Below, piece after piece: positions 6,488 through 48,086 of a DNA stretch of 63,765 nucleotides. This DNA is from Nitrospiraceae bacterium (GTDB taxonomy: Bacteria; Nitrospirota; Thermodesulfovibrionia; UBA6902): assembly GCA_003599505.1 (NCBI GenBank), contig QZKO01000039.1:1-63765 (forward strand). The letters run 5' to 3'. Position 1 is the stretch's first letter, and each line of letters starts with the position of its first letter. The notes under the pieces were generated by a model. The model did no database searches, was not told the origin of the DNA, and saw only the letters and a list, made by a program, of their open reading frames with translations. The position numbers were made by a program, and so were the translations under genes.

Positions 6488-6613
6488 GGAGTTAAGAGTT
6501 ATGAGTTGTGAGTTAAGAGTTAAAAGCAGGGGCCGGGGGCAAGGGCTCGTCACTCGTTACGCGTTACTCGTTACTGTTTTACTGTTCACTGTTCACTGTT
6601 CGCTGTTCACTGT
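6488..6613 (+). repeat. Cluster of three different 7-bp tandem repeats feeding into a signal peptide
   Basis: Successive heptamer families are visible: GAGTTAA-type (6488-6524), then a GGGGCCG/GGGGCAA-type block (6527-6545), then CGTTACT/CGTTACG (6553-6575), then GTTCACT copies (about 6580-6613). The start codon and hydrophobic signal region of the downstream protease are written in this repeat DNA. Confidence 0.7.
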
Positions 6614-25425: not shown

Positions 25426-27711
25426 ATGAAGCACAGGATGCAGATAACTATTAAAGGGATTGTGCAAGGCGTGGGTTTCAGACCGTTCATTTATAATCTT
25501 GCCAGGAGGCTCAACCTTTCCGGTTACGTGCTCAACAATACTACCGGCGTATCCATCGAGGTAGAAGGCGAGGGCCCCGACATAAAGGAATTCCTCGATA
25601 GCGTGAAGACCCAGCCGCCTCCGCAAGCGGATATCTTTGAAATAAAGAGTGACCACGCCGATCCGATAGGGTATGAGAATTTTGAGATCAGGGAGAGCGA
25701 GGACGTTGAGGAGAAGTTCGTTCCTATATCGCCTGAGCTTGCGACCTGCAAAGAGTGCGTCTCCGAATTGTTCGATCCGAAAGACAGGCGGCACCGGTAT
25801 CCTTTTATAAACTGCACCAACTGCGGCCCGAGGTTCACCATTGTAAAGGACATTCCTTATGACAGGAAATTTACGACCATGTCGGTCTTCCCTATGTGCG
25901 AAAAATGCAATGCTGAATACCATGATCCGGCAGACAGGAGATTCCATGCGCAGCCTAACGCCTGTCCCGTGTGCGGGCCGAGGCTTTTTCTGCTTGACAG
26001 CGAGAGAAAAGAGCTTCCCGTTGAAGACGTGATATCCGGGGCGTGCAGGCTTTTAAAGGAAGGCAAGATCATCGCAGTCAAAGGTCTCGGAGGCTATCAC
26101 CTCGCCTGCGACGCGCAGAACAGGGACGCGGTAGCGAGACTGAGGGCCAGGAAGTTCAGGGAGTATAAACCCTTTGCTATTATGGTAAAGGACCTTAAGA
26201 CCGCAAAAGAAATTTGCTTTGTGAATGAAAAAGAAGAGCAGCTTCTAAGCGGTGTAAAACGTCCGATAGTCCTACTTAAGAAACGGCCTGACGCCCCTGT
26301 CTCAGAGGATGTCGCGCCGGACCAGAAATACTTCGGCGTCATGCTGCCGTATACGCCGCTTCACCATCTGCTGCTTGCGGAGTCCGGGCTTATACTCGTC
26401 ATGACGAGCGCCAACATAAGCTCGGAGCCGATCGTCTTTGAGGATAAAGACGCGTTTGACAGGCTGAAAGACATAACCGATTATTACGTCATCCATAATA
26501 GGGAGATACACATAAGGACGGACGATTCCGTGAGCAGGGTAGAGCGCGGAAAAGACGTCGTGCTGAGAAGGTCCAGGGGGTATGCCCCGCATCCCCTGTT
26601 GATGAAGCATTCATTCACCGAGCAAATACTCGCATGCGGCGCGGAACTAAAAAACACATTTTGCCTCACAAGGGGCAATTACGCATTTCTCAGTCATCAT
26701 ATCGGGGACCTCGAAAACCTGGAGACGCTCTCGTCGTTTGAAAGCGGCATTGAGCATTTCAAGAGGATCTTCAATATAGAGCCTGCCGTTATCGCATATG
26801 ACCTGCATCCCGAATATCTTTCCACAAAGTATGCGCACTCTTTAAAAGAGACCGGGAAGGTCGGCGTGCAGCATCACCACGCGCATATCATAAGCTGCAT
26901 GGGCGACAACGGTCTGGAGGGAGAGATAATCGGTGTGTCTTTTGACGGCACGGGTTACGGGCTTGACGGCAAGATATGGGGCGGCGAATTCCTGGTCTGC
27001 AATTACGGCGCTTTTCAGAGGGCGGCGCATTTTGAATATTTCCAGCTCAACGGCGGGGAAAAGGCGATAAAAGAGCCGTGGAGGATAGCGGCTTCGTTAC
27101 TGTATAAAATTTACGGCGATGATATGATGGACTTAAACATTGATCTCGTGAAAACGCTCGAAAACGATAAGTGGCATATCCTTAAACAGATGATAGAGAA
27201 GGGCGTCAATTCACCTTTGACGTCGAGCGCCGGTCGAATATTTGACGCGGTGTCCGCCCTTTTAGGGATAAGAAAAGAGATCTATTATGAAGGCCAGGCC
27301 GCCATCGAGCTTGAAACGAAGGCCGACCCCGCGGATAAAGGCAGGTATGAGATCGCCTATAAAGAGCATGACGGCAAAACAGAGATCGTCCTCGTCCCTT
27401 TGATTAAAGGCATTGTCTCGGACCTTGCAAAAGGGACAGGCGTTGATACCATATCCGCAAGGTTTCACAACACGATGGCGGGCATTGTTTTAGATGTATG
27501 CCTGAAGCTTAAAAAACATACTGGGACCGACAGGGTGGCTTTGAGCGGCGGGGTGTTCCAGAATTCGCTGCTTATGGAGAAGACGTGTAAGCTCCTTGAT
27601 GAAAACGGCTTCAAGGTTTATACGCACCGCAGGGTACCGACGAATGACGGAGGCCTGTCGCTGGGGCAGGCGATCATTGCGAATGAACGGATAAAAGCGG
27701 GGAAGGTTTGA
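25426..27711 (+). CDS. hypF: Carbamoyltransferase HypF, [NiFe]-hydrogenase maturation
   Basis: This 761-residue protein has the full HypF architecture. An acylphosphatase domain (1-90, GIVQGVGFRPFIYNLA) is followed by two zinc-finger sets (CKEC, CTNC, CEKC, CPVC), a YrdC-like domain (IAVKGLGGYHLACDA) and a Kae1-like C-terminal domain with HHHAHIISCMGD and ALSGGVFQN. It forms carbamoyl-AMP from carbamoyl phosphate and ATP and passes the carbamoyl group to the HypE C-terminal Cys for cyanide-ligand synthesis. It starts 3 nt after the GT-C gene and overlaps no other. hypE is 2.1 kb downstream with two unrelated genes between; hypC and hypD are not in the window. Confidence 0.95.
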   Translation: MKHRMQITIKGIVQGVGFRPFIYNLARRLNLSGYVLNNTTGVSIEVEGEGPDIKEFLDSVKTQPPPQADIFEIKSDHADPIGYENFEIRESEDVEEKFVPISPELATCKECVSELFDPKDRRHRYPFINCTNCGPRFTIVKDIPYDRKFTTMSVFPMCEKCNAEYHDPADRRFHAQPNACPVCGPRLFLLDSERKELPVEDVISGACRLLKEGKIIAVKGLGGYHLACDAQNRDAVARLRARKFREYKPFAIMVKDLKTAKEICFVNEKEEQLLSGVKRPIVLLKKRPDAPVSEDVAPDQKYFGVMLPYTPLHHLLLAESGLILVMTSANISSEPIVFEDKDAFDRLKDITDYYVIHNREIHIRTDDSVSRVERGKDVVLRRSRGYAPHPLLMKHSFTEQILACGAELKNTFCLTRGNYAFLSHHIGDLENLETLSSFESGIEHFKRIFNIEPAVIAYDLHPEYLSTKYAHSLKETGKVGVQHHHAHIISCMGDNGLEGEIIGVSFDGTGYGLDGKIWGGEFLVCNYGAFQRAAHFEYFQLNGGEKAIKEPWRIAASLLYKIYGDDMMDLNIDLVKTLENDKWHILKQMIEKGVNSPLTSSAGRIFDAVSALLGIRKEIYYEGQAAIELETKADPADKGRYEIAYKEHDGKTEIVLVPLIKGIVSDLAKGTGVDTISARFHNTMAGIVLDVCLKLKKHTGTDRVALSGGVFQNSLLMEKTCKLLDENGFKVYTHRRVPTNDGGLSLGQAIIANERIKAGKV

Positions 27712-27712
27712 G

Positions 27713-28606
27713 ATGCTTAATTGCAGTATCGGCATAATGGCTTATAATGAAGAAGCCAATATCGGCAATCTGCTTGAGGCCCTGCTTATTCAAAAAACCC
27801 ATATCTGCCCGATAAAGGAGATATACGTTGTTGCAAGCGGCTGTGAAGACGGCACCGAGGATATCGTCAGGGATTACTCAAAGAAAGACGGCAGGATAAA
27901 GCTCCTGGTCCAGGAGAACAGGGAAGGAAAGGCGTCCGCCGTAAATCTTTTCCTCTCTGTTGCTCAAGGTGAAATAATCATGCTTGAAAGCGCCGATACC
28001 ATTCCCGCGCCGGGGACAATCGAAAAAATGGCGGCCCCGTTCTTTGACCCTTCCGTAGGCATGACGGGAGGACGGCCCGTGCCGGTTGACAGTCCCGATA
28101 ATTTCCTGGGCTTTACCGTCAATCTCCTCTGGAGGCTTCATCACATGATCTCACTTGAGCATCCGAAGATGGGCGAACTGATCGCGTTCAGAAACGTTGT
28201 TAAAGAGATCCCTGTCGACACGGCTGTGGATGAAGCGAGCATCGAGGCAATTGTTACGGACGCAGGCTTTAGAATAAAATATGCGGAGGACGCCGTGGTC
28301 TACAATAAAGGCCCTGAAAACATAAGAGAGTTCATAAAACAGAGACGCAGGATCGCCGCCGGGCATATATATGTCGGCAAGACCCAGCATCATTCCGTCT
28401 CGACAACTTCCGTAACGCATATATTGAAACCGCTTTTAAGGGATTTAAAGTGGTCGATGAAAGATATCCTCTGGACTTCCGGGGCGGTCCTCCTGGAGGC
28501 GTGGGGCAGGTTTTTAGGCTTTTATGATTTTCACGTCAGAAAGAGAAATCCCTTCATATGGGACATCTCAACGTCCACAAAGAAGTTGAAGGGAACGATA
28601 AATTGA
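27713..28606 (+). CDS. Family 2 glycosyltransferase
   Basis: This 297-residue protein has a GT-A core: IGIMAYNEEANIGNLLEALL, ASGCEDGTEDIV, an EGKASAVNLFL nucleotide-binding segment and a metal-site region at ESADTIP, where the usual DxD is altered. A KQRRRIAAGH acceptor-helix motif comes late. A C-terminal hydrophobic stretch (ILWTSGAVLLEAWGRFLGF) may touch the membrane. It starts one base after the hypF stop and is coupled to the next gene by a TTGA overlap. Such genes are not usual between hypF and hypE. The sugar and acceptor are unknown. Confidence 0.8.
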   Translation: MLNCSIGIMAYNEEANIGNLLEALLIQKTHICPIKEIYVVASGCEDGTEDIVRDYSKKDGRIKLLVQENREGKASAVNLFLSVAQGEIIMLESADTIPAPGTIEKMAAPFFDPSVGMTGGRPVPVDSPDNFLGFTVNLLWRLHHMISLEHPKMGELIAFRNVVKEIPVDTAVDEASIEAIVTDAGFRIKYAEDAVVYNKGPENIREFIKQRRRIAAGHIYVGKTQHHSVSTTSVTHILKPLLRDLKWSMKDILWTSGAVLLEAWGRFLGFYDFHVRKRNPFIWDISTSTKKLKGTIN

Positions 28607-29856
28607 AAGAAGCAAGATTGAAATTTCTCCGCTTTCACTGCCTGGACCGGCATCACTGCGCGGTCCAGTATCACCACCTGGTAGATGGAATTATAAAAAG
28701 GTTTGAAGCCGCCAACCCTCATGTTAAGATCGAATCGACCATCATGAGGAACTGGTATCAGCTTATGCATATACTGAACAAGAAGCTCCATACCGACGAA
28801 ACGCCGGATATATTCCATACCTGCGGCGGCGGCATACTCGAGGAGCTCTCCGATGCGGGTTTGGTATACGACCTTACACATGAGCTGGACGGCGGCTGGC
28901 GGAAGGACTTTGTGCCTGCCTCTCTTCAGCCGCTGAGGTTTCACGGGAAAGATTTCGCAATTCCCCTTGAGCAGGGCTGCATATTCGTCTGGTACAACAA
29001 GAAGATATTTAAAGCTTTCGGTTTTTCAGTTCCGAAGACTTTCGATGACCTTCTTTACATTTGCAGGGAGCTTGCAAAGAAAGGCATCGTGCCTTTTACG
29101 GTCGGCAACGGCGAGAGATGGCCCGGCGCCTTTTTCTTCTCACACCTGTTTCACAGGATCGGCGGGGAAGAAGTGTTTGTCAGCGACTTCACGAAAGCCT
29201 CCAATTACGATCATATTAGAAACAGCTTTATTGCGGCGGCGTCAAAGCTGCTTGAGCTTGTAGACGCAGGCGCATTCCACAAAGACTGCAACACCATGGA
29301 TTATTATCAGCAGCGCATGATGCTTGTCGAAGGCAAGGCCGCCATGCAGATAAACGGCAATCGCCTTCTGAATTATTTATTGGCTGAAGGGCCAGCTATA
29401 ATTGACAGTCTCGACATATTTTCATTCCCGCTCGTGGACGGCGGCAGAGGGAAGACCACAACCCTCTTCGGCGGCTCTCTTGCAACTTATGCCGTATCGG
29501 AGAAATCGGGGCATAAGCGGGAAGCGGTCCAATTTTTAAAATGTTTGACGGACCGGCAGGCTGCAAGGGACGTCATCTTTAACATGGGCGACATACCGGC
29601 TTTGACCCACGTTCCTTTCAGCGAATATCCGTCCGCGGTTCATGCGCGGATGGCGGAGGAATTGAGTATGGCCGAGAATCTTCAGGTGCATTATTTCAAA
29701 TACCTTCCGCCTCATGCAGCCGGAGTTTATCTGAACATAGTGGCCAAGCTTTTTGAAAAAGAGATCACGCCTGAAGAGGCCTTTAAGACGGTTGAGCAGG
29801 CGCTTGCCGCCAGGACAGGAAATAACGTGAACAAATCAGGAGGCATTGAAATATGA
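28603..29856 (+). CDS. Family 1 solute-binding-protein-like, no signal peptide
   Basis: This 417-residue protein has the MalE-like fold: IIKRFEAANPHVKIES near the N-terminus, PDIFHTCGGGILEEL, YNKKIFKAFGFSVPKTFDDLL, a GKAAMQINGN motif and FGGSLATYAVSEKSG. Translation most likely begins at TTG 28603, overlapping the GT2 stop, after GAAGGGAA. The first beta-strand of the fold begins almost at once, so there is no signal peptide or lipobox. No ABC permease or ATPase gene is nearby. It therefore looks like a cytosolic carbohydrate-binding protein recruited for another use. Its stop overlaps the hypE start (ATGA). Confidence 0.75.
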   Translation: MKEARLKFLRFHCLDRHHCAVQYHHLVDGIIKRFEAANPHVKIESTIMRNWYQLMHILNKKLHTDETPDIFHTCGGGILEELSDAGLVYDLTHELDGGWRKDFVPASLQPLRFHGKDFAIPLEQGCIFVWYNKKIFKAFGFSVPKTFDDLLYICRELAKKGIVPFTVGNGERWPGAFFFSHLFHRIGGEEVFVSDFTKASNYDHIRNSFIAAASKLLELVDAGAFHKDCNTMDYYQQRMMLVEGKAAMQINGNRLLNYLLAEGPAIIDSLDIFSFPLVDGGRGKTTTLFGGSLATYAVSEKSGHKREAVQFLKCLTDRQAARDVIFNMGDIPALTHVPFSEYPSAVHARMAEELSMAENLQVHYFKYLPPHAAGVYLNIVAKLFEKEITPEEAFKTVEQALAARTGNNVNKSGGIEI

Positions 29857-30863
29857 AAAAAGACAAAATAACCCTCGCACACGGAGGCGGCGGGCAGATC
29901 GCGAACGAGCTGATAGAGGGGCTTTTCCTCCCCATCCTCGGCAATCCTATATTGAACAAGCTGAACGACCAGGGGGTCTTTGAAATAAACTCCACGAGGT
30001 TCGCCTTCACTACGGATTCATACGTCATCAATCCGATCTTCTTCCCCGGCGGCGATATCGGGGAGCTTGCCGTTTACGGGACGGTGAATGACCTTTCAAT
30101 GGGCGGCGCAAGACCTCTTTACCTCAGTGTCGGCTTGATAATAGAGGAAGGCTTTCCAATGGATGATCTGACGAGGATAATGAATTCCATAAAAAAGGCC
30201 GCAAAGGAATCGGACGTCCAGATCATTGCAGGAGATACAAAGGTAGTAAATAAGGGCGGCGTTGACGGCATATTCATAAACACGGCCGGAGTGGGCGTCA
30301 TTGAATATAACCATAATATCTCCGCCGACAACCTGCAGGCAGGCGATAAAATAATCCTCAGCGGTTACCTCGCCGACCACGGCATCGCCATAATGGCAAA
30401 GAGGGAAGGGCTTATCTTTAATAACACGATATTGAGCGACAGCGCCCCTTTAAATAATATCGTTTCGGAGATGCTCAAGACCGGCGCGGAGATACACGCC
30501 ATGAGAGACCCCACCCGGGGCGGCTTGTCCTCTACGCTGAATGAATTTGCAAAGAAGTCCGGCGTCGGCATCGTTATTGAAGAAGCTAAGATACCCATCA
30601 GGGAAGAAGTGAGCGAGGCGTGCGAGATACTCGGCCTTAATCCGCTCTATGTCGCCAATGAAGGGAAGCTGGTGGCCGTGGTCAAAAGGGACGGCGCGGA
30701 CGTTATTCTCGAAGCCATGAGAAAAAGCAGGTTCGGCGAAATGGCCGCCCTCATCGGCGAAGTCACGGATTCGCACAAGGGGAAGGTTTTTATGAAGACC
30801 GTTACAGGCGCCACAAAGATTGTCGACATGTCCGTCGGAGACCAGCTTCCGAGGATCTGTTGA
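29853..30863 (+). CDS. hypE: Carbamoyl-dehydratase HypE, [NiFe]-hydrogenase maturation
   Basis: This 336-residue AIR-synthase/PurM-family protein starts with LAHGGGGQIANELI and has GGDIGELAVYGTVNDLSMGG, IIAGDTKVV and RDPTRGGLSSTLNE. It ends in PRIC, whose Cys accepts the carbamoyl group from HypF and is dehydrated with ATP to a thiocyanate. All hallmark segments are intact, so it is likely functional. It is coupled to the upstream solute-binding-like gene by a four-base overlap, with AGGAGG upstream. It is followed 10 nt later by a radical SAM gene. Confidence 0.95.
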   Translation: MKKDKITLAHGGGGQIANELIEGLFLPILGNPILNKLNDQGVFEINSTRFAFTTDSYVINPIFFPGGDIGELAVYGTVNDLSMGGARPLYLSVGLIIEEGFPMDDLTRIMNSIKKAAKESDVQIIAGDTKVVNKGGVDGIFINTAGVGVIEYNHNISADNLQAGDKIILSGYLADHGIAIMAKREGLIFNNTILSDSAPLNNIVSEMLKTGAEIHAMRDPTRGGLSSTLNEFAKKSGVGIVIEEAKIPIREEVSEACEILGLNPLYVANEGKLVAVVKRDGADVILEAMRKSRFGEMAALIGEVTDSHKGKVFMKTVTGATKIVDMSVGDQLPRIC

Positions 30864-30873
30864 GCGTATTTAG

Positions 30874-31938
30874 ATGATCGAATTAATCCCCCGCATCCCC
30901 CTCTTTAAACTCTTCAGAAGCTTCGGCGTGCCGGGAATGCTGCCCGTAAGCCTGACGGTCAGTGTTACGGGCAGGTGTAATTCCCGGTGTATGACCTGTA
31001 ATATCTACAATAAAAAGACCGGGGAATTATCTCTTGAGGAGTATGAGAAAATATTCAGCTCCATCGGCAAGGCGCCGTACTGGATAACGTTCAGCGGGGG
31101 CGAGCCGTTCTTGCGTGAAGATATCGCGGAGATATGCAAGAGCGCTTATAAGAATTGCGGGCCGAAGATCATCAACATCCCCACAAACGGGCTGCTTTCC
31201 GACAGGATCGAGAAAGGGGTAAGGGCAATACTTGACGGTTGTCCCGGTTCGAGCCTGATCATTAATCTCTCAATTGACGGAATCGGTGAAAGACACGATG
31301 AAATACGCGGGGTAAAAGGGTGTTTTGAGAGAGCGATGAGCACATATGAAAGGCTGAAATCGATCAAACATAAAAATTTGACGGTCGGCATACACACCGT
31401 CATATCCAGATATAATGCAAAGGAGATACCGTCGCTTTACAAGCGGATTAAAGAGCTGAAGCCGGATTCCTATATTACCGAGATAGCCGAGGAGCGCGTA
31501 GAGCTCGGCACCATCGGCGCCGGCATTACGCCTTCTTTGCGGGATTATTCCGCCGCCGTTGACTTTCTCTCAAACGAAATGAAAGACTGGGATATGAAAG
31601 GGCTTGCGAGGATAACAAGGGCGTTCCGTATGAGATATTATCAGACCGTAAAGAAGATATTGAAAGACAATAAAGAGGTCATCCCCTGTTTTGCGGCTTT
31701 CGCTTCCTGCCAGATAACTCCCGAAGGCGACGTTTGGGCGTGCTGTATAAAGGCGGAGAATATGGGGGCGCTGCGCGATGCGGGTTATGATTTTAGAAAG
31801 ACATGGTTTTCGGATAAAGCGAAGGAGGTAAGGAATTCCATCCGGCAAGGTAAATGCTTTTGTCCGCTTGCCAACGCCAGTTACACGAATATGCTGTTTA
31901 CCCCGCAATATCTTTTCTTCGGAAGAAATTCAAGGTGA
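30874..31938 (+). CDS. Radical SAM protein with SPASM-like C-terminus
   Basis: This 354-residue protein has a CxxxCxxC cluster motif (CNSRCMTC) at about 35-42, FSGGEPFLRED and a PTNGLLS segment. The C-terminal part has extra cysteines (CFAAFASC, WACC, CFC) consistent with a SPASM or twitch domain holding auxiliary Fe-S clusters. SPASM enzymes modify peptides or sugars. It starts 10 nt after hypE and ends overlapping the NAD-epimerase start. The substrate is unknown. It could act on a glycan nucleotide or on a peptide; the Cys-repeat protein 1.9 kb downstream is a speculative candidate. Confidence 0.75.
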   Translation: MIELIPRIPLFKLFRSFGVPGMLPVSLTVSVTGRCNSRCMTCNIYNKKTGELSLEEYEKIFSSIGKAPYWITFSGGEPFLREDIAEICKSAYKNCGPKIINIPTNGLLSDRIEKGVRAILDGCPGSSLIINLSIDGIGERHDEIRGVKGCFERAMSTYERLKSIKHKNLTVGIHTVISRYNAKEIPSLYKRIKELKPDSYITEIAEERVELGTIGAGITPSLRDYSAAVDFLSNEMKDWDMKGLARITRAFRMRYYQTVKKILKDNKEVIPCFAAFASCQITPEGDVWACCIKAENMGALRDAGYDFRKTWFSDKAKEVRNSIRQGKCFCPLANASYTNMLFTPQYLFFGRNSR

Positions 31939-32927
31939 ATATATTGGTTACAGGGGGCACAGGGTTTATCGGCAGCAACCTTGTGCACAGGCTCACGGCG
32001 GACAGCCATAGAGTAATTGTCCCTGTAAGAAAGCAGAGCAGCACAAAATGGCTTTCCCCCTCTAACGTAGAGATAATTGAAACCGATCTGTCCGAACATG
32101 AGAAAGTAAAAGGGCTTTTAAAAGGAGTTGACGTCGTTTTTCACCTTGCCTCCATCAGAGGGAGCGGATGGTCCTATCCGGAGGAACAGATATTAAACAC
32201 GAACATAAGAATAACGGAGAATTTGCTTGAGGCATCCGCCGGCATTAACAGACATTTTATTTACATCAGCTCGGTAGGTGTTCACGGTTATTTAAACGGA
32301 CGGACAGCAGATGAAAATTTTCCATATAACCCTTCGACAAGATACGGGATGACAAAGTGCGAATCGGAAAAACTGGTAAAGAAATATCATGAAGAAAAGG
32401 GACTGAAGACAACCATAATCCGTCCTGTTATAACGTACGGTCCGAAGGATACGTGGGGAATGGTCCCTAAATTGATAGGGCTCATAAATTCAAGGAAATA
32501 CCTTACCGTAGGGAGCGGTGAAAACAGGGTGCATCTTATTTATATAGACGACCTGATTGACGGGATGCTGTTCGCAATGAATAAACCCGACAGTTACGGG
32601 GAGACCTTTATCCTTGCGGGTGAACGACCTATAACTATAAACGGGTTAGTCGACATAATAGAAAAGACATTAAAAGCGTCCGTATCCGGCGTGCATGTGC
32701 CTTTATGGTTTGCCCGGACAATTGCCGTTATCATGGAAACCGCGTACAAAGCTTTGTTGAAAGGTAAAGAGCCTGTCATCACAAGGGACAAGATCAACAT
32801 CATGACGGTGGACAGGGCTTACGCTATAACAAAGGCAAAGAGCCTGCTCGGGTTTTCCCCGTCAACGGACTATGAAAAAGGACTGAGCATGACCATACGA
32901 TGGCTGAAAGAAAATAAACTGATATAA
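31935..32927 (+). CDS. NAD-dependent epimerase/dehydratase
   Basis: This 330-residue extended SDR has the glycine-rich NAD motif VTGGTGFIGSNL at its N-terminus, ISSVGVHGYL and a catalytic YGMTKCESEK (YxxxK), followed by an IRPVITYGP motif. It is likely a sugar-nucleotide epimerase or dehydratase, or a hydroxysteroid-like dehydrogenase; the exact reaction cannot be chosen from sequence alone. The start is GTG 31935, overlapping the radical SAM stop (GTGA). A much longer reading frame from 31854 is excluded by the overlap and the perfect motif position. Confidence 0.8.
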   Translation: MNILVTGGTGFIGSNLVHRLTADSHRVIVPVRKQSSTKWLSPSNVEIIETDLSEHEKVKGLLKGVDVVFHLASIRGSGWSYPEEQILNTNIRITENLLEASAGINRHFIYISSVGVHGYLNGRTADENFPYNPSTRYGMTKCESEKLVKKYHEEKGLKTTIIRPVITYGPKDTWGMVPKLIGLINSRKYLTVGSGENRVHLIYIDDLIDGMLFAMNKPDSYGETFILAGERPITINGLVDIIEKTLKASVSGVHVPLWFARTIAVIMETAYKALLKGKEPVITRDKINIMTVDRAYAITKAKSLLGFSPSTDYEKGLSMTIRWLKENKLI

Positions 32928-32947
32928 TCTTGTTAGAGAGAACTGAA

Positions 32948-33718
32948 ATGAAATCAATGATAATACTCCCTACATATAATGAAAGGGAAAATATTGAAAA
33001 GCTCGTCCCCGGGATACTGGACCTGAAGCGGGATTTTTATATAACTATAGTAGACGACAATTCTCCTGACGGCACCGGTGAAGCGGCGGACAGGCTTGCG
33101 GCTTCCCATCCGGGGATTCATGTCATTCACAGACCGGAAAAATCGGGATTAGGCACTGCTTATCTGGAGGGCTTCAGGTATGCCCTAAGTAAGAATATGG
33201 ATTATATTTTCGAGATGGATGCCGATCTTTCACATCACCCTAAGTACCTCATTGATATGCTTGACGCAATCAGGGATGCGGACCTCGTAATAGGCAGCAG
33301 ATATTATGAAGGAGTGAGGGTTGACGGCTGGCGTTTCAGAAGGTTGCTTCTGAGTAAATTCGCCAACATGTACGCATCATACATGATCCTCCTTCCCGTG
33401 TGGGATTTTACCAGTGGGTTCAGATGCTTTCGTCGTGAGGTACTTGAGAAACTGGACCTCACGAGTATCCGTTCGGACGGATATTCATTCCAGATTGAAG
33501 TTGCGGCATATGCATACAGGCTCGGGTTCAGAATAAAGGAAATACCTATTATCTTCTATGGAAGGGTGTCGGGTGATTCAAAGATGTCCGGACGCATTGT
33601 GTGGGAAGCATTCTGGACCGTGATCAGATTAAGATCTCCTTTGATTGAAATAATCAAACATCTCAGGTTTTTCTTTAAAGATTATAGTGAATTTGTAAGA
33701 GAAGGAAAAGGAAGTTGA
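32948..33718 (+). CDS. Polyprenyl-phosphate glycosyltransferase, Dpm1-like
   Basis: This 256-residue GT2 protein has LPTYNERENIEKLVPGIL, IVDDNSPDGTG and EMDADLSHHP (DxD), then TSGFRCFRREVL and RVSGDSKMS. These are the hallmarks of dolichol/polyprenyl-phosphate mannose synthase. It would make a lipid-linked monosaccharide donor for GT-C transferases such as those at 3333 and 23779. ATG 32948 follows AGAGAGAA; the TTG at 32930 is a less likely start. It ends the operon that began with hypF, before a strong bidirectional terminator. Confidence 0.85.
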   Translation: MKSMIILPTYNERENIEKLVPGILDLKRDFYITIVDDNSPDGTGEAADRLAASHPGIHVIHRPEKSGLGTAYLEGFRYALSKNMDYIFEMDADLSHHPKYLIDMLDAIRDADLVIGSRYYEGVRVDGWRFRRLLLSKFANMYASYMILLPVWDFTSGFRCFRREVLEKLDLTSIRSDGYSFQIEVAAYAYRLGFRIKEIPIIFYGRVSGDSKMSGRIVWEAFWTVIRLRSPLIEIIKHLRFFFKDYSEFVREGKGS

Positions 33719-33744: not shown

Positions 33745-33784
33745 AAAAAAAACTGGTAAGGGAATTTCCTTACCAGCTTTTTTT
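33745..33784. terminator. Strong bidirectional intrinsic terminator
   Basis: A 9-bp stem CTGGTAAGG/CCTTACCAG (33753-33761 and 33768-33776) with a 6-nt loop is flanked by an A-tract on the left and a T-tract on the right. It can stop both the plus-strand Dpm1 operon and the converging Cys-repeat gene. Confidence 0.9.
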
Positions 33785-33804: not shown

Positions 33805-34023
33805 TTACTCTTCAGTCGTGCTCTCTGAGCTGTTCTCCTTAACTTCAGGATGAGCCTCGATTTCAATGCACGGATTTTTTGCAGTTCCGCAGCAGTTTTC
33901 TGCTACAACCGGATGAAGTTCAACTTCAATACACGGATTTTTTGCAGTTCCGCAGCAGTTTTCTGCTACAACCGGATGGAGTTCAACTTCTATACACGGA
34001 TTTTTTGCTGTTCCACAACACAT
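33805..34023 (-). CDS. Small Cys-rich protein of three tandem 21-residue repeats
   Basis: This 72-residue protein starts at ATG 34021-34023 behind AAAGGAGG. After Met come three in-frame 21-residue repeats with the core CCGTAKNPCIEVELHP, then an acidic, Ser-rich tail. The first two repeats are identical in protein and differ at about five of 63 nt; the third differs at a few residues. Each repeat has three Cys. No signal peptide or membrane segment is visible. A longer frame from 34086 has no RBS. A sigma-54 site (34083-34097) sits 60 nt upstream. I know no family with this repeat. Metal or redox binding, or a multi-core peptide precursor, are hypotheses only. Confidence 0.75.
   Translation of the reverse strand: MCCGTAKNPCIEVELHPVVAENCCGTAKNPCIEVELHPVVAENCCGTAKNPCIEIEAHPEVKENSSESTTEE
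33832..34020 (-). repeat. Three tandem 63-bp coding repeats
   Basis: Units at 33958-34020, 33895-33957 and 33832-33894 code for the 21-residue repeats of the small Cys protein. The first two units are about 92% identical, suggesting recent expansion. Confidence 0.9.
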
Positions 34024-34082
34024 AATATTTCCTCCTTTCTGTGGGAATTCCACGAATAATGTATAAGTTTTATGATTAAAGA

Positions 34083-34097
34083 GCAAATATTATGCCA
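34083..34097 (-). promoter_or_regulatory. Sigma-54 (-24/-12) promoter of the Cys-repeat gene
   Basis: On the minus strand TGGCATAATATTTGC matches the consensus TGGCACG-N4-TTGC with the required 10 nt between GG and GC. The predicted transcript start is about 34071, some 48 nt before the ATG, which leaves room for the AGGAGG ribosome site. Confidence 0.7.
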
Positions 34098-34367
34098 TCG
34101 TCGGTTAATTATTTTAACCTATTGAAATAATGTGTTAAAATAAATATTGTTATTTTAAGCAACGCTCTGTAAATTATAAAAATTGTAAAAAAAAGCGACA
34201 AACTCTAATGAGTTACTAATTTTATGTAAGATGTACCGACATTCTTAATTAAATGACGCGTATAACTGTCAGCTTATTCGACACAATAAATAAAAACGCG
34301 ATAAAACAGGGAGTTATCAGAGGCAGGGAAGCCGCTATGGCTTCCCTGCTTTTTGCTAATTATAAGT
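34098..34367. other. AT-rich spacer with a hairpin, no gene seen
   Basis: No supported ORF is present. An 11-bp stem GCAGGGAAGCC/GGCTTCCCTGC (34323-34333 and 34339-34349) is followed by TTTTT on the plus strand, as in a rho-independent terminator. No plus-strand gene lies upstream, since the Dpm1 operon already ends at 33784. It may end a small plus-strand RNA or act as the 3' stem of the PEP-CTERM mRNA read from the other strand. Confidence 0.4.
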
Positions 34368-34937
34368 CTATCTGATTTTTTGTATGTATCTTCTTGCAGC
34401 CAGAAGCGTCCCTCCCGTAATAAAGAGTAAACAACTGACAGGCTCAGGCGCAACCGGAGGCGCGACATCGCCGTCACGGACAGCCCATGCATAACGGTCT
34501 GTGGTCTTGGCGCTGAGGTCTTGTGTGCCGTATTTGAAATTAAACCTCCACGCCTGAGATAAATCCGAATCACTTTCCGTCCCGGACCAGTATATGGAAG
34601 GTTTTACGTTTACAAATAGCCCGGGAGACGCGGAAGTTATGGTTTCAGTATAAAAAAGATGTCCCATCTCGCTTCCGGAGCAGTCATTTCCTGAACAGGT
34701 GTCGGATGCGGGGAGTCTCCAGTCGTCGAAACCCTGAAAAACGAGGTTTGACGCCCAGGAATTTGCCTCATCCCATGTCAGGGTAAGCGTGGAATAATTT
34801 GCGTCCTGCAGCCAGGTGAGATTTAAACCGTCATCGTATATGAGCCCGTTTCCCCTGTCGATAAGTCCCGCGTGCGCGGGTGAGATCAGCGTCAATAACA
34901 ACATAGTCGCCGCGGTGAAGAAAAAAGTTTTTTGCAT
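34368..34937 (-). CDS. PEP-CTERM sorted protein with DUF1566 domain
   Basis: This 189-residue protein has a signal peptide (cleavage after AHA, near residue 23), a DUF1566-type domain (TWDEANSWASNL, DWRLPAS, YWSGTE, AWRFNF, YAWAVRDG) and a C-terminal sorting tripartite signal. The signal consists of PEP at 164-166, a hydrophobic run CLLFITGGTLLA and a basic end, RRYIQKIR. Exosortase A recognises such tails and cleaves them during export to the surface or exopolysaccharide. The sigma-54 site at 35198-35212 precedes it with a ~250-nt leader. An exosortase-locus acyltransferase is divergent. It is probably a matrix or surface protein. Confidence 0.85.
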   Translation of the reverse strand: MQKTFFFTAATMLLLTLISPAHAGLIDRGNGLIYDDGLNLTWLQDANYSTLTLTWDEANSWASNLVFQGFDDWRLPASDTCSGNDCSGSEMGHLFYTETITSASPGLFVNVKPSIYWSGTESDSDLSQAWRFNFKYGTQDLSAKTTDRYAWAVRDGDVAPPVAPEPVSCLLFITGGTLLAARRYIQKIR

Positions 34938-35197
34938 CTGGTTTCCCCTGCCTTTCTGTCAAATTGAGTTTGGAATCAATGTGCTTGTTATTTGTTTTTG
35001 ATGAAGAATTACGGCTGTGAACGGTTTCTGGTTTCCATGTCCCCTCCATTTTTTCAAATTTTCTTGACAACGCGCTGATGGAACGTTGTTAAGAAAATTT
35101 GTGTGTTAAAGTTTATTGCAGGTCCGGAAGTTAATGACAGCCCATTTTTATTTTCATAGAATGTCCCCTTGAAACTTGCTTTTCAGCACGAGTGCTT

Positions 35198-35212
35198 GCA
35201 ATTGTTATGCCA
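35198..35212 (-). promoter_or_regulatory. Sigma-54 (-24/-12) promoter of the PEP-CTERM gene
   Basis: On the minus strand TGGCATAACAATTGC has the GG and GC elements 10 nt apart and shares its first seven bases with the site before the Cys-repeat gene. The leader to the ATG at 34937 would be about 250 nt, which is long. Confidence 0.65.
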
Positions 35213-36272: not shown

Positions 36273-37292
36273 ATGGCAAACAAGTTCAGTTTTACTGCCG
36301 ATAAGGATTTAGTAATAAAAATTAATGCTTCATGCGGGAAAGAAGCATGCAACAATATTGCTGTAAGCATTGAAGGCAGGAAGGTCCGGGAGATTTTCCC
36401 CTTTCTGGAGAAAAAGATAGAACTTGTCTTTAAGGACGGCAGGGTGAGGCATATAACAGGATACAAACATACCTGCGTTATGGGCTCAACTCTTTCTTCC
36501 GACGTGGAGCTTGCCCCGGTAAAAGGCAGGAAAGGGGAAGTTAAGGAAGTTACAGTAGCGCTCGATAATTTTTTACTCGAATGTCCTCTGAACAGGAAGC
36601 TCTCCTATTCCGATGAAAAGATGATCGAAATAGGCAAAACGGCATCATCCCTTGCCCATGGGGTAAGGAACCCCCTTAATGCCATAAAGGGCGCTGTTGT
36701 TTATCTGCGCGAAAAATACGGACATGAAGCAACGCTGCTGGAATTCAGCACGATTATCAACGATGAAATAAACAAACTCGATAACTTTATCTCTAATTTT
36801 CTGAGCGCCGCGAAAGGTGAGATGAAACCCGCTCCCGTCCTGCTTGACGACATCCTGAAAAGGATTACCGCCATGATCAGGCCCCGCGCCGAGATGCAGA
36901 AGATAAACATTACACAGGACCTTTCCAGCCTGCCGCATATAGACGCGGACTATTTCCAGATCGAACAGGCGCTGTTTAATGTCGTCAACAACGCGGTAGA
37001 GGCGATGCCGGAAGGCGGCGTCCTTGAGATCAGGACATCGCTTAAATGGGAGAAAGACAGGGATTACGCTGTAATAAAAATATCAGATACCGGGGAGGGT
37101 ATTCCGCGAGAGAAGCTGCGGAGGCTCGGCGAAATTCGCGGCGGGACCGGTAAGAACGACAGGGGGTTTGGTATTTTTATATCACGTGAGATCATAAAAT
37201 CTCACAACGGGAAACTGTTATGGGAAAGCATAAGCGGCAAGGGGACCACCTTTAAAATCTACCTGCCGTTCAGTGCTAAAAGACAGGCATAA
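36273..37292 (+). CDS. Soluble sensor histidine kinase (PrsK-like position)
   Basis: This 339-residue kinase has its H-box at SSLAHGVRNPLNAIKG (His129), an N-box NVVNNAVEA, G1 DTGEGIP, G2 DRGFGIFIS and GKGTTF, so the NtrB-type catalytic core is complete. The N-terminal ~115 residues have no membrane helix and contain four Cys (21, 26, 68 and 104), which could bind a metal or sense redox state. Canonical PrsK proteins of exosortase loci are about twice as long, with membrane and GAF regions, so this is a reduced or different sensor. It is followed 56 nt later by a sigma-54 activator, its likely partner. Confidence 0.8.
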   Translation: MANKFSFTADKDLVIKINASCGKEACNNIAVSIEGRKVREIFPFLEKKIELVFKDGRVRHITGYKHTCVMGSTLSSDVELAPVKGRKGEVKEVTVALDNFLLECPLNRKLSYSDEKMIEIGKTASSLAHGVRNPLNAIKGAVVYLREKYGHEATLLEFSTIINDEINKLDNFISNFLSAAKGEMKPAPVLLDDILKRITAMIRPRAEMQKINITQDLSSLPHIDADYFQIEQALFNVVNNAVEAMPEGGVLEIRTSLKWEKDRDYAVIKISDTGEGIPREKLRRLGEIRGGTGKNDRGFGIFISREIIKSHNGKLLWESISGKGTTFKIYLPFSAKRQA

Positions 37293-37348
37293 ATTATTTG
37301 TCCGTCCGCCTGAGCGGGCTAACTTCGGCAACCTGGGGAGAAGGAAAG

Positions 37349-38701
37349 ATGGACTCCGGAGACAAAGGGAACATTCTTCTGGTGGATGATGAACCGAACG
37401 CCTTAAAAGTCCTGTCCGCCATACTCAGGGAAGCGTCATACAAAACATATCAGGCGGATTGTTTTGATAAGGCCGTAGAAATAGTTTCGCTTGAGGACAT
37501 TGATGCGGTTATTACCGACTTGAAGATGCCGGGGAAAGACGGACTGCATCTGTTCCACCGCCTGAAAGCAAATAACCCTGACATACCTGTTATTTTTCTT
37601 ACGGCATACGGGACTGTCGATTCCGCCGTTACCGCGATGACCGAAGGGGCTTTTTTCTATTTTATTAAACCGCCGGATTACGTAAAGCTGAAGGCGGTCC
37701 TGTCCAGGGCGGTTGAACAAAAAAGACTCAGGAGCGAGGTTGCGGACCTGAGAAGCCGCATCGAATCGACTTACGGATTTTCAAGCATAATCGGGAAAAG
37801 CCCGGGTATGGAAAGTATCTTCAGGACGGTAGAGTCGATCAAGGATTCCTCGACAAATGTCCTGATAACCGGAGAAACGGGCACGGGCAAGGAGCTGCTC
37901 GCAAGAGCGATCCATTACACCAGTCACAGGCATTACAGGCCGTTTGTTGCCGTAAACTGCGCCGCGCTGCCCCACGAGCTCCTTGAGGCGGAATGTTTCG
38001 GTTATGAGAGAGGCGCTTTTACAGGCGCGGTCTCAAGGAGAGTAGGGAAATTCGAAGAGGCGGACACCGGCACACTGTTCCTTGATGAAATCGGGGAGCT
38101 GGGCCTTCCCCTCCAGGCAAAACTGCTTCGGGCCATCCAGGAAAAGGAGATTGAACGCATCGGCGGGAACAGGAAAATAAAGATAGATGTGAGGTTGCTT
38201 GCGTCAACAAACCGCGACCTGTCGAGAGAGATAAGGTCTGAAAATTTCAGAACGGACCTTTACTACCGTCTGAATGTAGTGCAGATTAAACTGCCGCCCT
38301 TAAGGGACAGGAGAACCGACATCCCACTGCTCGTTACCCACTTTATCGATAAATTCGCCAACCGTGAAAACAAGCGCGTGACGTCGGTTTCACCCGAGGT
38401 AATGCGCGTATTTCTGCAGCATGACTGGCCCGGGAACATAAGAGAACTTGGGAATGTTATAGAGAGGGCGGTTGTCCTTGTAAAGGGAGATGTTATAGGG
38501 CTTAGAGACATCCCGGCCGAGATCAGGAAAGAGGCAAAGGTCAGCGGTCAGGCCCCTGAAAAACTCAAGCCGTTGAAAGAGATCGAGCTTGAGATGATAA
38601 ATCAGGCGCTCAACACATTTCGCGGCAATAAGTCAAAGGCCGCAAGGGCCCTCGGAATAACCAGAAAAGCTCTTTATAAGAGACTTGAAAATGTAAAATA
38701 A
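37349..38701 (+). CDS. prsR: Sigma-54-dependent response regulator, PrsR-like
   Basis: This 450-residue NtrC-type regulator has a receiver domain with phospho-acceptor Asp57 ([12 protein letters not shown]), an AAA+ domain with [14 protein letters not shown] (sigma-54 contact loop) and FLDEIGEL, and a Fis-type HTH ([20 protein letters not shown]) at the C-terminus. ATG 37349 follows GGAGAAGGAAA; the TTG start at 37298 is rejected. In exosortase-A organisms the PrsK/PrsR pair works with RpoN to activate PEP-CTERM and exopolysaccharide genes. Here three sigma-54 sites lie within 5 kb. The symbol is by position and domain content. Confidence 0.85.
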
Positions 38702-38999: not shown

Positions 39000-39380
39000 A
39001 TGGCTGATTCAAAGAAAATTCTGATTATAGAAGAAGACGGCTTTTCAAAAATATGCTCCGCTATTCTGCGTGAAGAGGGGTATCAGACAAGTCTTGCCGT
39101 TTCCGTGAAAGAAGCCGTCCGGATCGCTTCGAATAACGGGATATCCCTGATCGTTTCAGGCTATTCATTTGTGGATTCACTCCTGAAATCAAGAATTATC
39201 CAGGAGGTGCCGACTATAGTGCTGTCTGATGAACTGAACAATGAGCTTATTGAAACCATGAAATGCATCAGGAATTCGGTTTGTTTATTAAGACCCATTG
39301 ATTATGAGAGGTTCAAATACATAGTGCGCGGGGTACTGAACGGTTACCTTAACCTGTCAGGAGGGAATATCATTGCGTAG
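39000..39380 (+). CDS. Stand-alone degenerate receiver-domain protein
   Basis: This 126-residue protein is a CheY-like receiver fold on its own: ILIIEEDG (acidic pocket 11-13), SLIVSGYS, TIVLSDEL and CLLRPIDYERF. At the phospho-acceptor position the usual Asp is Gly54 (SLIVSG aligned to AVITDL of the neighbouring regulator). The conserved Lys in the KP motif is Arg98, so aspartyl phosphorylation is unlikely. It overlaps the PrsT-like gene by 8 nt and is transcribed first in that operon from the sigma-54 site. It may be a protein-interaction or ligand-binding pseudo-receiver. Confidence 0.75.
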   Translation: MADSKKILIIEEDGFSKICSAILREEGYQTSLAVSVKEAVRIASNNGISLIVSGYSFVDSLLKSRIIQEVPTIVLSDELNNELIETMKCIRNSVCLLRPIDYERFKYIVRGVLNGYLNLSGGNIIA

Positions 39381-42138
39381 GATAACAGCCTTTATTTTTT
39401 TATTTTTTGTCCTGGCTGCAGGGTGCAATAAAGACCTGAGCAAACAGCAATATTACGACAAAGGCGTAAAGTTCCTTGAAAGCGGAAACGCCAACGGGGC
39501 AATTATTGCTTTCAAGAAGGCGATTGAGAATGACCAGAATTACTTTGAAGCAAGGTACAAGCTCGGCCTGGCGTATCTGGCCCAGGGCAAATTTGAATCC
39601 GCTGAAAAAGAATTGCTTAAGGTAAGCAAATTAAATCCGTCATATAATGACACTCATATCGCTCTCGCAAAGGCATACATGGGTTTATCCGAACTGAATA
39701 ACGCCGTCACGGAGATCGACAGGTATCTAAGTAAAATCAGCAATAATGATGAGGCATACGAGGTTGCCGCTTCAATATATGTTGCCAAGAGGGATTATTT
39801 CAAGGCAGAAGAATACCTGGGAAAATCCCTGATGATTTCCCCGCAGCGGTTATCTTCAAAGATTATGCTTTCAGATATTTATTTACTGGAAGGAAAAACC
39901 GCGCAGTCGGAGACCCTTATAAAGGAAGTTCTTGATAAGGACACTAACAATAAAAAAGCCTTGTACGTTTTTTCGAGGATACAACAGAAGCAGGGGAAAA
40001 ATGACGATTTGATAAGTACATACCGGAAGATACTCGATATAGACCCGAAAGACATCAACGCGCAATTGGAATTAGGCCTGGTTTATATTCAGACCATGAA
40101 GCTGGAAAAGGCCAGGAAACTGGCCGGTGAAATGCAGAAGGCATCTAATAAAAGGCATGAAGGCTCATATCTAATGGGTCTGGTGTACTATTATGAAAGA
40201 AAAATAGACGAGGCATTGGTTTTGCTTCAGAAATCAGCGGAAAAAAAGGCTATTCCAGGGGCTTTTTACCATCTTGGACTCTGCCATCTTGAAAAAGGCG
40301 ATCTGGAGCAGGCAACCAGCGCTTTTCAGAAAGTAATTGACCTGAGGCCCGATACGGTACAGCCCCGCCTGCTGCTTACTTTAACTCACCTGCGTAACGG
40401 CAGATACGAAGAAGCCGAAAGAGAAGCAAAGACAGCGCTGGATATCGACGGGGAAAATGCCTTTGCGCATAATATGCTTGGCAGCGCATATCTGGCGCTC
40501 AATAAGGGGGAACTTGCCGTTGAGGAGTTCGACAGGGCTATTGAACTCGATCCGACACTCGTTGACGCCCATATAAAGAAGGGAAATTTCAGCCTGGTGG
40601 CAGGCGATGAGCAGAAGGCTGAGAAGGAGTTCTCCGTCGCGGTTAAAATAGCTCCTGATTTGCTCGATAGCAGAATTATTCTTGCCAAGTACTATATAAA
40701 AACAAAAAAATTTATTGAAGCTATAACCACGTTAGAGGAAGGCCTTAGGGGAAACGTCAATGACGCGGTCCTTTACAATATTATCGGAGCGGCGCATATC
40801 GGGCTTCTGGATACCGGGAAGTCCCTGCAGAGCTTTGAAAAGGCTAAATCCTCCAATCCCGGTTTTCTGCTTTCCTATTTTAATTCAGCCCTGGTCTATC
40901 TGAATAAAGGCGATCAGGAAAAGGCGATTAAGGAATATGAAAAGGTCCTTGACATAAGCGACAGCAACATTACAGCCCTCCTGATGCTGGCAAGGGTTCT
41001 GGAAGCAGAAAAGAGAGACAAAGAGGCGTTGTCTTATTACTTTAAGGCAAAAAAACTGGGAAAAGTTGAAGCGTATATGGCGCTTGCGGGATATTATCAG
41101 CGAAAGAATGACAGTAAGCAGGCACTAAGCGTCCTTAAAGAGGCATTGAATATTGAACCCGACAATCTCAGGGCCGGAGACATGATGGGGGCATTATATG
41201 CCGCCGACAGGAACTATAAAGAGTCCCTTTCCGTCTACAGAGATATTAAAGATATTTCTCCCGGATTCGCCGCTGAGAGGATAGCCGGAGTCTATGCGGC
41301 CATGGGCGACTACGATAAGGCTATAACGGAGATGAGGGGGTTATTGGCGAAAAATAAAAACAGGACCGATGTCCTCCAGACAATACTTAATCTTTACATG
41401 AAGAAGAAAGATTACGTTTCCGCGGAAAGGGCGGCAAAGGAGATTATCTCGATCAAGCCGGGAAATTATTACTCGTATCATTTTCTTGCCTCGGTGTACA
41501 GAGAAGCCGGCAGGATACAGGACGCGCTCGGTGTTTTAAAGAAAGCCAGGGAACTGAGTCCGACCGGTATTGAGACAAGCATGGAGATGGGGAAAACATA
41601 TTTTGCCGGCAGGGATTTCAATAAGGCCCTTGAGATTTTCCGGGAGGTCGAGAGATCTAAGCCGTTGTATGCTCCTGCATATTTTTACCAGGCCGCCGTT
41701 CTCGAAGAAACCGGCAACAGAAAGGACTCTGTTGAAAAATATAAGAAGACACTGGAGCTTTCTCCGGACTACGCCCCTGCGTTGAACAACCTTGCGTATC
41801 TGTTCGCCGAAGGCTACGGTCCGGCCGGCAAGGCGGTGGAGATGGCGCGCAGGGCCAAAGAATTAGCGCCGGCGGAAGGCAGCATAACAGATACACTGGG
41901 ATGGACGCTGTATAATGCCGGCAGTTACGACGAAGCCCTGAAGTATTTTATAGAAGCTACATATTACCTTCCCGGCGATCCCGCCGTTCGTTACCATTTA
42001 GGATTGGCGTACTTGAAGAAAGGACTGAGAGACAGGGCGGAAGAGCAGATAAAGAACTCAGTCCGTCTCGGGCGCCGTTCTCCTTTTGCCGAGATTGAAA
42101 TCGCGCAGAAGCTTCTGGACGACATAAAAAAACAATGA
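39373..42138 (+). CDS. prsT: TPR-repeat lipoprotein, PrsT-like (exosortase locus)
   Basis: This 921-residue protein has a type II signal peptide with lipobox LAAGC near residue 18, then about 22-24 TPR units from end to end (for example YFEARYKLGLAYLAQGKFES and AFAHNMLGSAYLALNKGELA). This is the long TPR lipoprotein of exosortase-A/PEP-CTERM exopolysaccharide systems. It is anchored in the outer membrane and probably acts as a scaffold for polymer assembly. It starts at TTG 39373 after GGAGGG, overlapping the receiver gene. Its stop overlaps the sugar-transferase start (ATGA), so all three are one operon. Confidence 0.85.
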   Translation: MRRITAFIFLFFVLAAGCNKDLSKQQYYDKGVKFLESGNANGAIIAFKKAIENDQNYFEARYKLGLAYLAQGKFESAEKELLKVSKLNPSYNDTHIALAKAYMGLSELNNAVTEIDRYLSKISNNDEAYEVAASIYVAKRDYFKAEEYLGKSLMISPQRLSSKIMLSDIYLLEGKTAQSETLIKEVLDKDTNNKKALYVFSRIQQKQGKNDDLISTYRKILDIDPKDINAQLELGLVYIQTMKLEKARKLAGEMQKASNKRHEGSYLMGLVYYYERKIDEALVLLQKSAEKKAIPGAFYHLGLCHLEKGDLEQATSAFQKVIDLRPDTVQPRLLLTLTHLRNGRYEEAEREAKTALDIDGENAFAHNMLGSAYLALNKGELAVEEFDRAIELDPTLVDAHIKKGNFSLVAGDEQKAEKEFSVAVKIAPDLLDSRIILAKYYIKTKKFIEAITTLEEGLRGNVNDAVLYNIIGAAHIGLLDTGKSLQSFEKAKSSNPGFLLSYFNSALVYLNKGDQEKAIKEYEKVLDISDSNITALLMLARVLEAEKRDKEALSYYFKAKKLGKVEAYMALAGYYQRKNDSKQALSVLKEALNIEPDNLRAGDMMGALYAADRNYKESLSVYRDIKDISPGFAAERIAGVYAAMGDYDKAITEMRGLLAKNKNRTDVLQTILNLYMKKKDYVSAERAAKEIISIKPGNYYSYHFLASVYREAGRIQDALGVLKKARELSPTGIETSMEMGKTYFAGRDFNKALEIFREVERSKPLYAPAYFYQAAVLEETGNRKDSVEKYKKTLELSPDYAPALNNLAYLFAEGYGPAGKAVEMARRAKELAPAEGSITDTLGWTLYNAGSYDEALKYFIEATYYLPGDPAVRYHLGLAYLKKGLRDRAEEQIKNSVRLGRRSPFAEIEIAQKLLDDIKKQ

Positions 42139-43526
42139 ACTTTTTAAAGAATTCTTTTGCATCGAAAAACATACTGTTAATCGCGGGAGACATGTTCCTG
42201 TCTTTTGCGGCCGTCTACGGCGGCGCTTTTTTACGGTTCTCGAATAATCATGACCTCCTGATGAGAGAATATGCGTCTTTGCCTCCGAAGGCCGCGGTAT
42301 TTTCAATCGCTGTCATATTAATGGTTTTCTTCACGGACCTCTATGACGCGGAACCGAATGATAAAAAAGGAATATTTTCAAGGATCGTAATCGGGAATTC
42401 ATTGGCATTTGTTGCGCTTGGGACCTTTTATTATTTTATCCCTTTTGTCAAGATCGGCAGGGGTATTTTATTCCTGTCAATCTGTCTGGCTATTATAGTT
42501 CAGACGTTATGGCATATAGGCTATGCCTTGTTTCTGAAGCTGCCTGCTATGTCAAGCAAGGTGCTGATTCTCGGCGCCGGTCCTGTAGCGCTGACCATGG
42601 GAAACTTATTTGCCGGAAATAGCAGAAATAACAATGGATTAAAACTTGCCGGTTACGTGAATTGCACCGGCGAGACCATCCGTGTCCCCAGGAACAATGT
42701 AATCGGGGAAAGCGCGAGTTTGCTTGAAATCGCATTAAATGAGAGGGTGCATAAAATTATTGTTTCCCTCAGTGAAAGGAGGGGTTCCTTCCCGGTAAGA
42801 GAGCTGCTCAACTGCAAGCTGCAGGGAATTGATATTATTGAAGGGCCGTCTTTTTATGAACAGATAACGGGGAAATTGCTTATTGAGAACATGAACCCAA
42901 GCCATTTTATTTTTTCCGATGGGTTCAGAATAACCGCGCTCAGACGTTATGTTAAACGCGCGGCGGACGTTATTTTCAGCTCTGCAGGACTTATACTGTC
43001 AATCCCGCTTTTCCTGATTTTATCCATTATAATAAAACTGGATTCGAAGGGGCCTGTATTGTTCAGACAAAAGCGCGTTGGAGAGGGTGAAAGGCCTTTC
43101 ATTATATATAAGTTCAGGACGATGGTAGAAGACGCTGAAAGAGACAGCGGACCGGTGTGGTCCAGTAAAGGCGACAGCCGGATTACAAGGGTTGGAAGAT
43201 TTTTGAGAAAAACACGCCTTGATGAAATTCCCCAATTGTTCAACGTTTTCTCCGGGGACATGAGTTTTATAGGTCCAAGACCCGAAAGGCCTTTTTTTGT
43301 CGAGTCCCTGAAGAAACAGATCCCTTATTATTCGGAGAGGCATTGCATAAAGCCTGGCGTTACCGGATGGGCTCAGGTAAAATATCAATACGGAGATTCC
43401 ATGGAAGACGCCATTGAGAAGCTGCGGTATGATCTCTATTACATAAAGTATCAATCTCTTTTGATTGATCTTCTTATTGTCCTGAGCACCGTTAAGGTTA
43501 TTTTCTTCGGGCGGGGGGGAAGGTAA
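42135..43526 (+). CDS. Undecaprenyl-phosphate sugar-1-phosphate transferase, exosortase-locus type
   Basis: This 463-residue protein has an N-terminal set of four to five membrane helices, a CoA-binding-like Rossmann domain (SSKVLILGAGPVALTMG) and a C-terminal bacterial sugar transferase domain (KRAADVIFSSAGLI, then YKFRTMVEDAE, KTRLDEIPQLFNVF, FIGPRPERP, KPGVTGWAQV). It starts repeat-unit synthesis by moving a phosphosugar from UDP-sugar to undecaprenyl phosphate. It resembles the EpsB-type initiating transferases of exosortase-A loci. It overlaps PrsT by four bases. Confidence 0.85.
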   Translation: MNFLKNSFASKNILLIAGDMFLSFAAVYGGAFLRFSNNHDLLMREYASLPPKAAVFSIAVILMVFFTDLYDAEPNDKKGIFSRIVIGNSLAFVALGTFYYFIPFVKIGRGILFLSICLAIIVQTLWHIGYALFLKLPAMSSKVLILGAGPVALTMGNLFAGNSRNNNGLKLAGYVNCTGETIRVPRNNVIGESASLLEIALNERVHKIIVSLSERRGSFPVRELLNCKLQGIDIIEGPSFYEQITGKLLIENMNPSHFIFSDGFRITALRRYVKRAADVIFSSAGLILSIPLFLILSIIIKLDSKGPVLFRQKRVGEGERPFIIYKFRTMVEDAERDSGPVWSSKGDSRITRVGRFLRKTRLDEIPQLFNVFSGDMSFIGPRPERPFFVESLKKQIPYYSERHCIKPGVTGWAQVKYQYGDSMEDAIEKLRYDLYYIKYQSLLIDLLIVLSTVKVIFFGRGGR

Positions 43527-43586
43527 TTTGAACGGAACTAAAGAATGTCCTTGCCCGCGCCGAAACTTAATTATACCGGAGGGAAT

Positions 43587-44387: not shown

Positions 44388-44433
44388 AAAAGCAGGGGCG
44401 GCAAAGAGCGGGCGGAGAGTTTAAGGAGAAAAA

Positions 44434-45975: not shown

Positions 45976-46008
45976 GGTTAAAATATTTTTGGATATAAGA
46001 GGGAATAA

Positions 46009-48077: not shown

Positions 48078-48086
48078 GTCTCTAAA

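Follow-up and report, generated by a model that had tools for sequence, protein, structure and literature searches.

A Cys-rich triple-repeat protein of a deep-subsurface Nitrospirota bacterium and its probable place in a PrsR-type regulon

A small gene in a deep-subsurface Nitrospirota bacterium encodes a 72-residue, Cys-rich protein of three 21-residue units, which lies outside every described family yet is under strong purifying selection. Its upstream region carries three conserved copies of a 17-nt box ahead of a predicted sigma-54 promoter, and on the basis of this arrangement the gene is very probably a member of a PrsR-type regulon. We refer to the whole stretch of DNA analyzed here (63,765 nucleotides) as the window.

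The repeat protein and its relative

The coding sequence and its parts are as follows.

33805-34023, minus strand: coding sequence of the Cys-rich triple-repeat protein, 72 aa, supported by the selection test below; stop codon at 33805-33807
33958-34020, minus strand: unit 1, CCGTAKNPCIEVELHPVVAEN
33895-33957, minus strand: unit 2, CCGTAKNPCIEVELHPVVAEN, with 5 silent differences from unit 1
33832-33894, minus strand: unit 3, CCGTAKNPCIEIEAHPEVKEN; its protein sequence is nearest to that of the relative's unit 3
33808-33831, minus strand: acidic tail SSESTTEE; the tail of the relative is shorter, SSESSE

A preliminary description of this DNA had reported the open reading frame, and its coordinates, minus strand, length of 72 aa and nine Cys proved exact on reexamination. 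The protein consists of Met, three 21-residue units (CCGTAKNPCIEVELHP...) and the acidic tail; translation of the open reading frame reads MCCGTAKNPCIEVELHPVVAEN-CCGTAKNPCIEVELHPVVAEN-CCGTAKNPCIEIEAHPEVKEN-SSESTTEE. Unit 1 begins at residue 2, with no leader ahead of the repeats. Tandem Repeats Finder independently detected an array with a 63-bp period at 33862-34014 (score of 278). The first two 63-bp units had been said to differ at about five bases; they differ at exactly 5 of 63, and every difference is silent. Unit 3 differs from the other units by 14 to 19 bases and at 4 of 21 residues. The module has the consensus C-C-G-T-A-K-x-P-C-I-E-x-E-x-H-P-x-V-x-E-N, so that each unit contains three Cys and one His and the whole protein offers 12 potential soft ligands.

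The earlier view of this protein as undescribed is borne out by our searches. It had no credible match in Pfam, NCBIfam, PHROG, PADLOC, or PDB sequence searches, nor a metallothionein-family match in Pfam, NCBIfam, or PDB, and a literature search for the repeat core found nothing. Genome contigs were scanned by exact 8-residue words, a method that reaches close relatives only, and profile searches across 47 order-level and 396 phylum-level genomes found the protein in only two species. Weak profile matches (EF-G, antisense frames, a TPR protein, and an epimerase) were read and rejected, and plasmids, phages, and viral contigs yielded no distant homologues. The sole true relative is encoded in a same-genus MAG, Thermodesulfovibrionia DeMMO2_3 (G005; contig JAGVGM010000211.1), and likewise has three units, with 89% protein identity. 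The preliminary description had proposed a search of other genomes for the repeat core and its neighbors; this relative and its syntenic glycosyltransferase neighbor are what that search returned.

Comparison of the two genes shows how they have diverged. In the unit region, 34 of 45 DNA differences fall at codon position 3, and pS is 0.80, a value at which silent sites are saturated, against a pN of 0.077. These values indicate a genuine protein on which purifying selection is strong, and we regard its reality as nearly certain on this sequence evidence. The opposite-strand open reading frame is not conserved: it contains a stop in the relative, and 29 of 64 residues agree. That the gene is instead nonfunctional, a chance open reading frame or a decaying repeat, is in keeping with its presence in two species only; we consider this extremely improbable, given that the pS and pN values refute it unless the substitution pattern is an artifact, and that the Shine-Dalgarno sequence, promoter, boxes, and terminator are all conserved. 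The 9 Cys and 3 His do not vary across the six units of the two species. Because invariance extends to 16 of the 21 unit positions, however, conservation does not set Cys and His apart.

Units 1 and 3 are each closest, in protein, to the like-numbered unit of the other species. The middle unit pairs with unit 1 in the window, from which 5 silent differences separate it, but in the relative it pairs with unit 3, again at 5 differences. Either the middle unit was overwritten repeatedly, or a third unit was gained twice from a two-unit ancestor. The proposal of recent expansion is thus upheld in part: the middle unit resembles opposite neighbors in the two species, but the unit count is three in both, and the homologues in the window genome and its relative show no difference in unit number.

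Promoter and putative activator boxes

The following elements flank the coding sequence.

34031-34036, minus strand: Shine-Dalgarno sequence AGGAGG (AAAGGAGG), conserved in the relative
34082-34097, minus strand: predicted sigma-54 promoter TGGCATAATATTTGCT, 59 nt upstream of the ATG, conserved in the relative
34184-34200, minus strand: putative activator box 3 (PrsR-type), TGTCGCTTTTTTTTACA
34225-34241, minus strand: putative activator box 2, TGTCGGTACATCTTACA
34267-34283, minus strand: putative activator box 1, TGTCGAATAAGCTGACA
33746-33783, no strand assigned: bidirectional intrinsic terminator, common to the convergent glycosyltransferase gene; stem at 33753-33776

The strong ribosome-binding site and the terminator noted previously were both found, as AAAGGAGG and the stem at 33753-33776. 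The sigma-54 promoter was likewise recovered, as TGGCATAATATTTGCT at 34082-34097, and three boxes that the preliminary description had missed extend it to a probable PrsR-type regulon. These 17-nt boxes (TGTCG-N7-TNACA) lie upstream of the sigma-54 site, and their spacings, 42 and 41 bp, do not vary between the two species. The 27 fixed box positions are likewise all identical, compared with 50% identity in the other intergenic DNA, and none of 20,000 Markov shuffles contained two or more boxes. The 3'-most box ends in TTTACA. In the two species, the spacer from box to sigma-54 site is 86 and 89 nt, and the distance from the sigma-54 site to the ATG is 59 and 71 nt.

A closely similar arrangement was described by Haft et al. 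2006 (PMC1569441) for PEP-CTERM genes. There, a 17-nt motif ending in TTTACA, sometimes repeated, sits 32 to 92 nt before a sigma-54 motif, which precedes the ATG by a mean distance of 71; PrsR is the predicted activator, and the motifs were found only in Proteobacteria. By the text description in that study, motif length, TTTACA end, sigma-54 motif, spacer, and ATG distance all match those found here. To look for the same arrangement elsewhere, we used a composite pattern of box, 60 to 90 nt, and sigma-54 site, with the reversed pattern as a control. The single box TGTCG-N7-TNACA was rejected as a specific marker, with 42 matches genome-wide compared to 16 for the reversed pattern; only the sigma-54 composite is specific. 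The composite matched 22 times among 38 relatives and 40 times among 396 Nitrospirota genomes, with no reversed-pattern matches in either set. PEP-CTERM proteins are encoded downstream of about 31 of 50 distinct composites (a manual count in which the downstream open reading frames were read). The remainder mostly precede exported-looking proteins, as judged by eye, and a few cytoplasmic ones (MshEN-like and PilZ-like, names likewise given by eye). In Nitrospirota, the composite also stands ahead of subtilase-like and polysaccharide-export genes.

Both partners of the predicted regulatory system are present in the genome. Of its 23 matches to the PrsR model, one exceeds the cut-off, a true PrsR on contig C12 (635 bits; cut-off, 502.6), and a true PrsK is found on the same contig (548 bits; cut-off, 300). 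The regulator at 37298-38701 in the window was rejected as the cognate PrsR, as it scores 393 bits, below 502.6, and the better candidate is on contig C12. The histidine kinase/NtrC-type pair of the XrtA locus (36273-38701) falls well short of the PrsK/PrsR cut-offs and is thus a second, paralogous pair. PrsT lies at 39373-42138, with XrtA-associated exopolysaccharide genes at 42099-49214 (families EpsB_2, TyrKin, TIGR03016, and TIGR03015).

Motif similarity points to PrsR as the likely activator of the repeat gene. The composite extends the range of the PrsR-type box from Proteobacteria to Nitrospirota. The repeat protein itself has no match to the PEP-CTERM model, and by inspection both a signal peptide and a C-terminal PEP/TM/Arg cluster are absent; lacking signal peptide and leader, it is probably cytoplasmic. 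A promoter search can therefore reveal non-exported regulon members that PEP-CTERM domain searches miss.

The neighboring operon and possible functions

Three neighboring genes are as follows.

30874-31938, plus strand: radical SAM/SPASM protein, the candidate maturase of the preliminary description
32930-33718, plus strand: convergent glycosyltransferase (GT2), which ends the operon that runs from HypF through the radical SAM gene; syntenic neighbor in the relative
34368-34937, minus strand: PEP-CTERM-like protein with an Lcl_C domain, served by a sigma-54 site of its own at 35197-35212; it scores 10.5 bits with the PEP-CTERM model, below the 16-bit cut-off

The tightly overlapping operon at 25426-33718 encodes HypF, HypE, two glycosyltransferases, an SBP-like protein, the radical SAM/SPASM protein, and an epimerase. 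HypF and HypE both score far above cut-off, the HypE C terminus is PRIC, and the SBP-like protein has no evident signal peptide. The order HypF, glycosyltransferase, SBP-like protein, HypE, radical SAM/SPASM protein, epimerase is conserved in the relative, whose contigs break between epimerase and glycosyltransferase, and we infer the last junction. Elsewhere in the window, a heptanucleotide tandem repeat (ACTGTTC, 4.9 copies) occupies 6564-6614.

It had been suggested that the repeat protein is a multi-core precursor, whose units would be cut apart once the Cys of each had been crosslinked by the radical SAM/SPASM enzyme (30874-31938) or by a different one. A whole number of exact repeats, each with its Cys at the same positions, is what such a precursor would show, and an orthologue of the enzyme (79%) occurs only in the two peptide-bearing genomes, with conserved gene order. 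The adjacent glycosyltransferase is also found only in these two genomes, however, so this co-occurrence does not discriminate. The suggestion otherwise has little support: no leader precedes unit 1, and the enzyme has no recognition domain (Pfam gives Radical_SAM and SPASM, with a subthreshold Fer4_12). Its best NCBIfam matches, to heme and other SPASM enzymes, are far below cut-off; its gene lies in an opposite-strand operon without an exact sigma-54 site, which argues against co-regulation; and no protease or exporter was seen beside the peptide gene. An MNIO (DUF692) Cys-peptide system was considered and rejected, as PF05114 is absent from both genomes. We therefore judge a precursor role improbable.

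The explanation we prefer begins with phosphorylated PrsR, which would bind the three boxes, set at intervals of about four helical turns, and then activate the sigma-54 form of RNA polymerase at the -24/-12 site, so that the repeat protein would be switched on together with exosortase-sorted matrix proteins. Less confidently, each unit would supply its three Cys and one His as ligands, and the protein would be a reservoir of metal or thiols, similar to a metallothionein, that matrix production requires. Given three Cys and one His per unit, such a reservoir is our best single guess, which we hold tentatively; the metal or redox buffer suggested earlier is still plausible. AlphaFold predicts no fold (pLDDT of 38), a result that neither supports nor excludes metal binding. 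Ranked close behind, and on its own rather unlikely, is a structural or regulatory role without metal, in which the protein would form intermolecular disulfides or a binding scaffold, e.g., as a feedback adaptor for matrix synthesis. Co-regulation with matrix genes, the flexible acidic tail, the alternating hydrophobic residues in the repeats (IEVELHP), and the lack of a predicted fold would all suit such a role; against it, an extracellular structural role would need a signal peptide, which is absent, and a protein so rich in Cys within a reducing compartment more commonly serves metal or redox roles. Returning to the metal or thiol reservoir, a wider reading is possible if somewhat doubtful: modular Cys3His proteins that stay inside the cell would make up a new family, timed with the exosortase-sorted extracellular matrix, and would link that matrix to metal/thiol homeostasis or be cut into small Cys-rich peptides. 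The promoter link to a known biofilm-matrix regulon offers this otherwise uncharacterized small protein a function that can be tested.

Comparison with known systems

The repeat gene shares features with three kinds of known system. Like multi-core RiPP precursors that have radical SAM/SPASM maturases, it has repeated Cys units, with a SPASM gene at a distance of about 2 kb; in contrast to those systems, no leader, recognition domain, adjacent protease or exporter, or co-regulation was seen. Bacterial metallothioneins and other small Cys/His-rich metal binders are also small and cytoplasmic-looking with a repeated ligand pattern, and the repeat protein contains 12.5% Cys and, in addition, His. 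It departs from metallothioneins in matching no Pfam or NCBIfam model, in its regular 21-residue units, and in its sigma-54 matrix-type control. Compared with the products of PEP-CTERM genes under PrsK-PrsR, it is tiny and Cys-rich, has no signal peptide or PEP-CTERM domain, and belongs to a Nitrospirota host. Its gene nevertheless resembles those genes in forming a single-gene unit, preceded by a long intergenic region that contains a repeated 17-nt motif, a spacer, and a -24/-12 site, in a genome that encodes both PrsK and PrsR.
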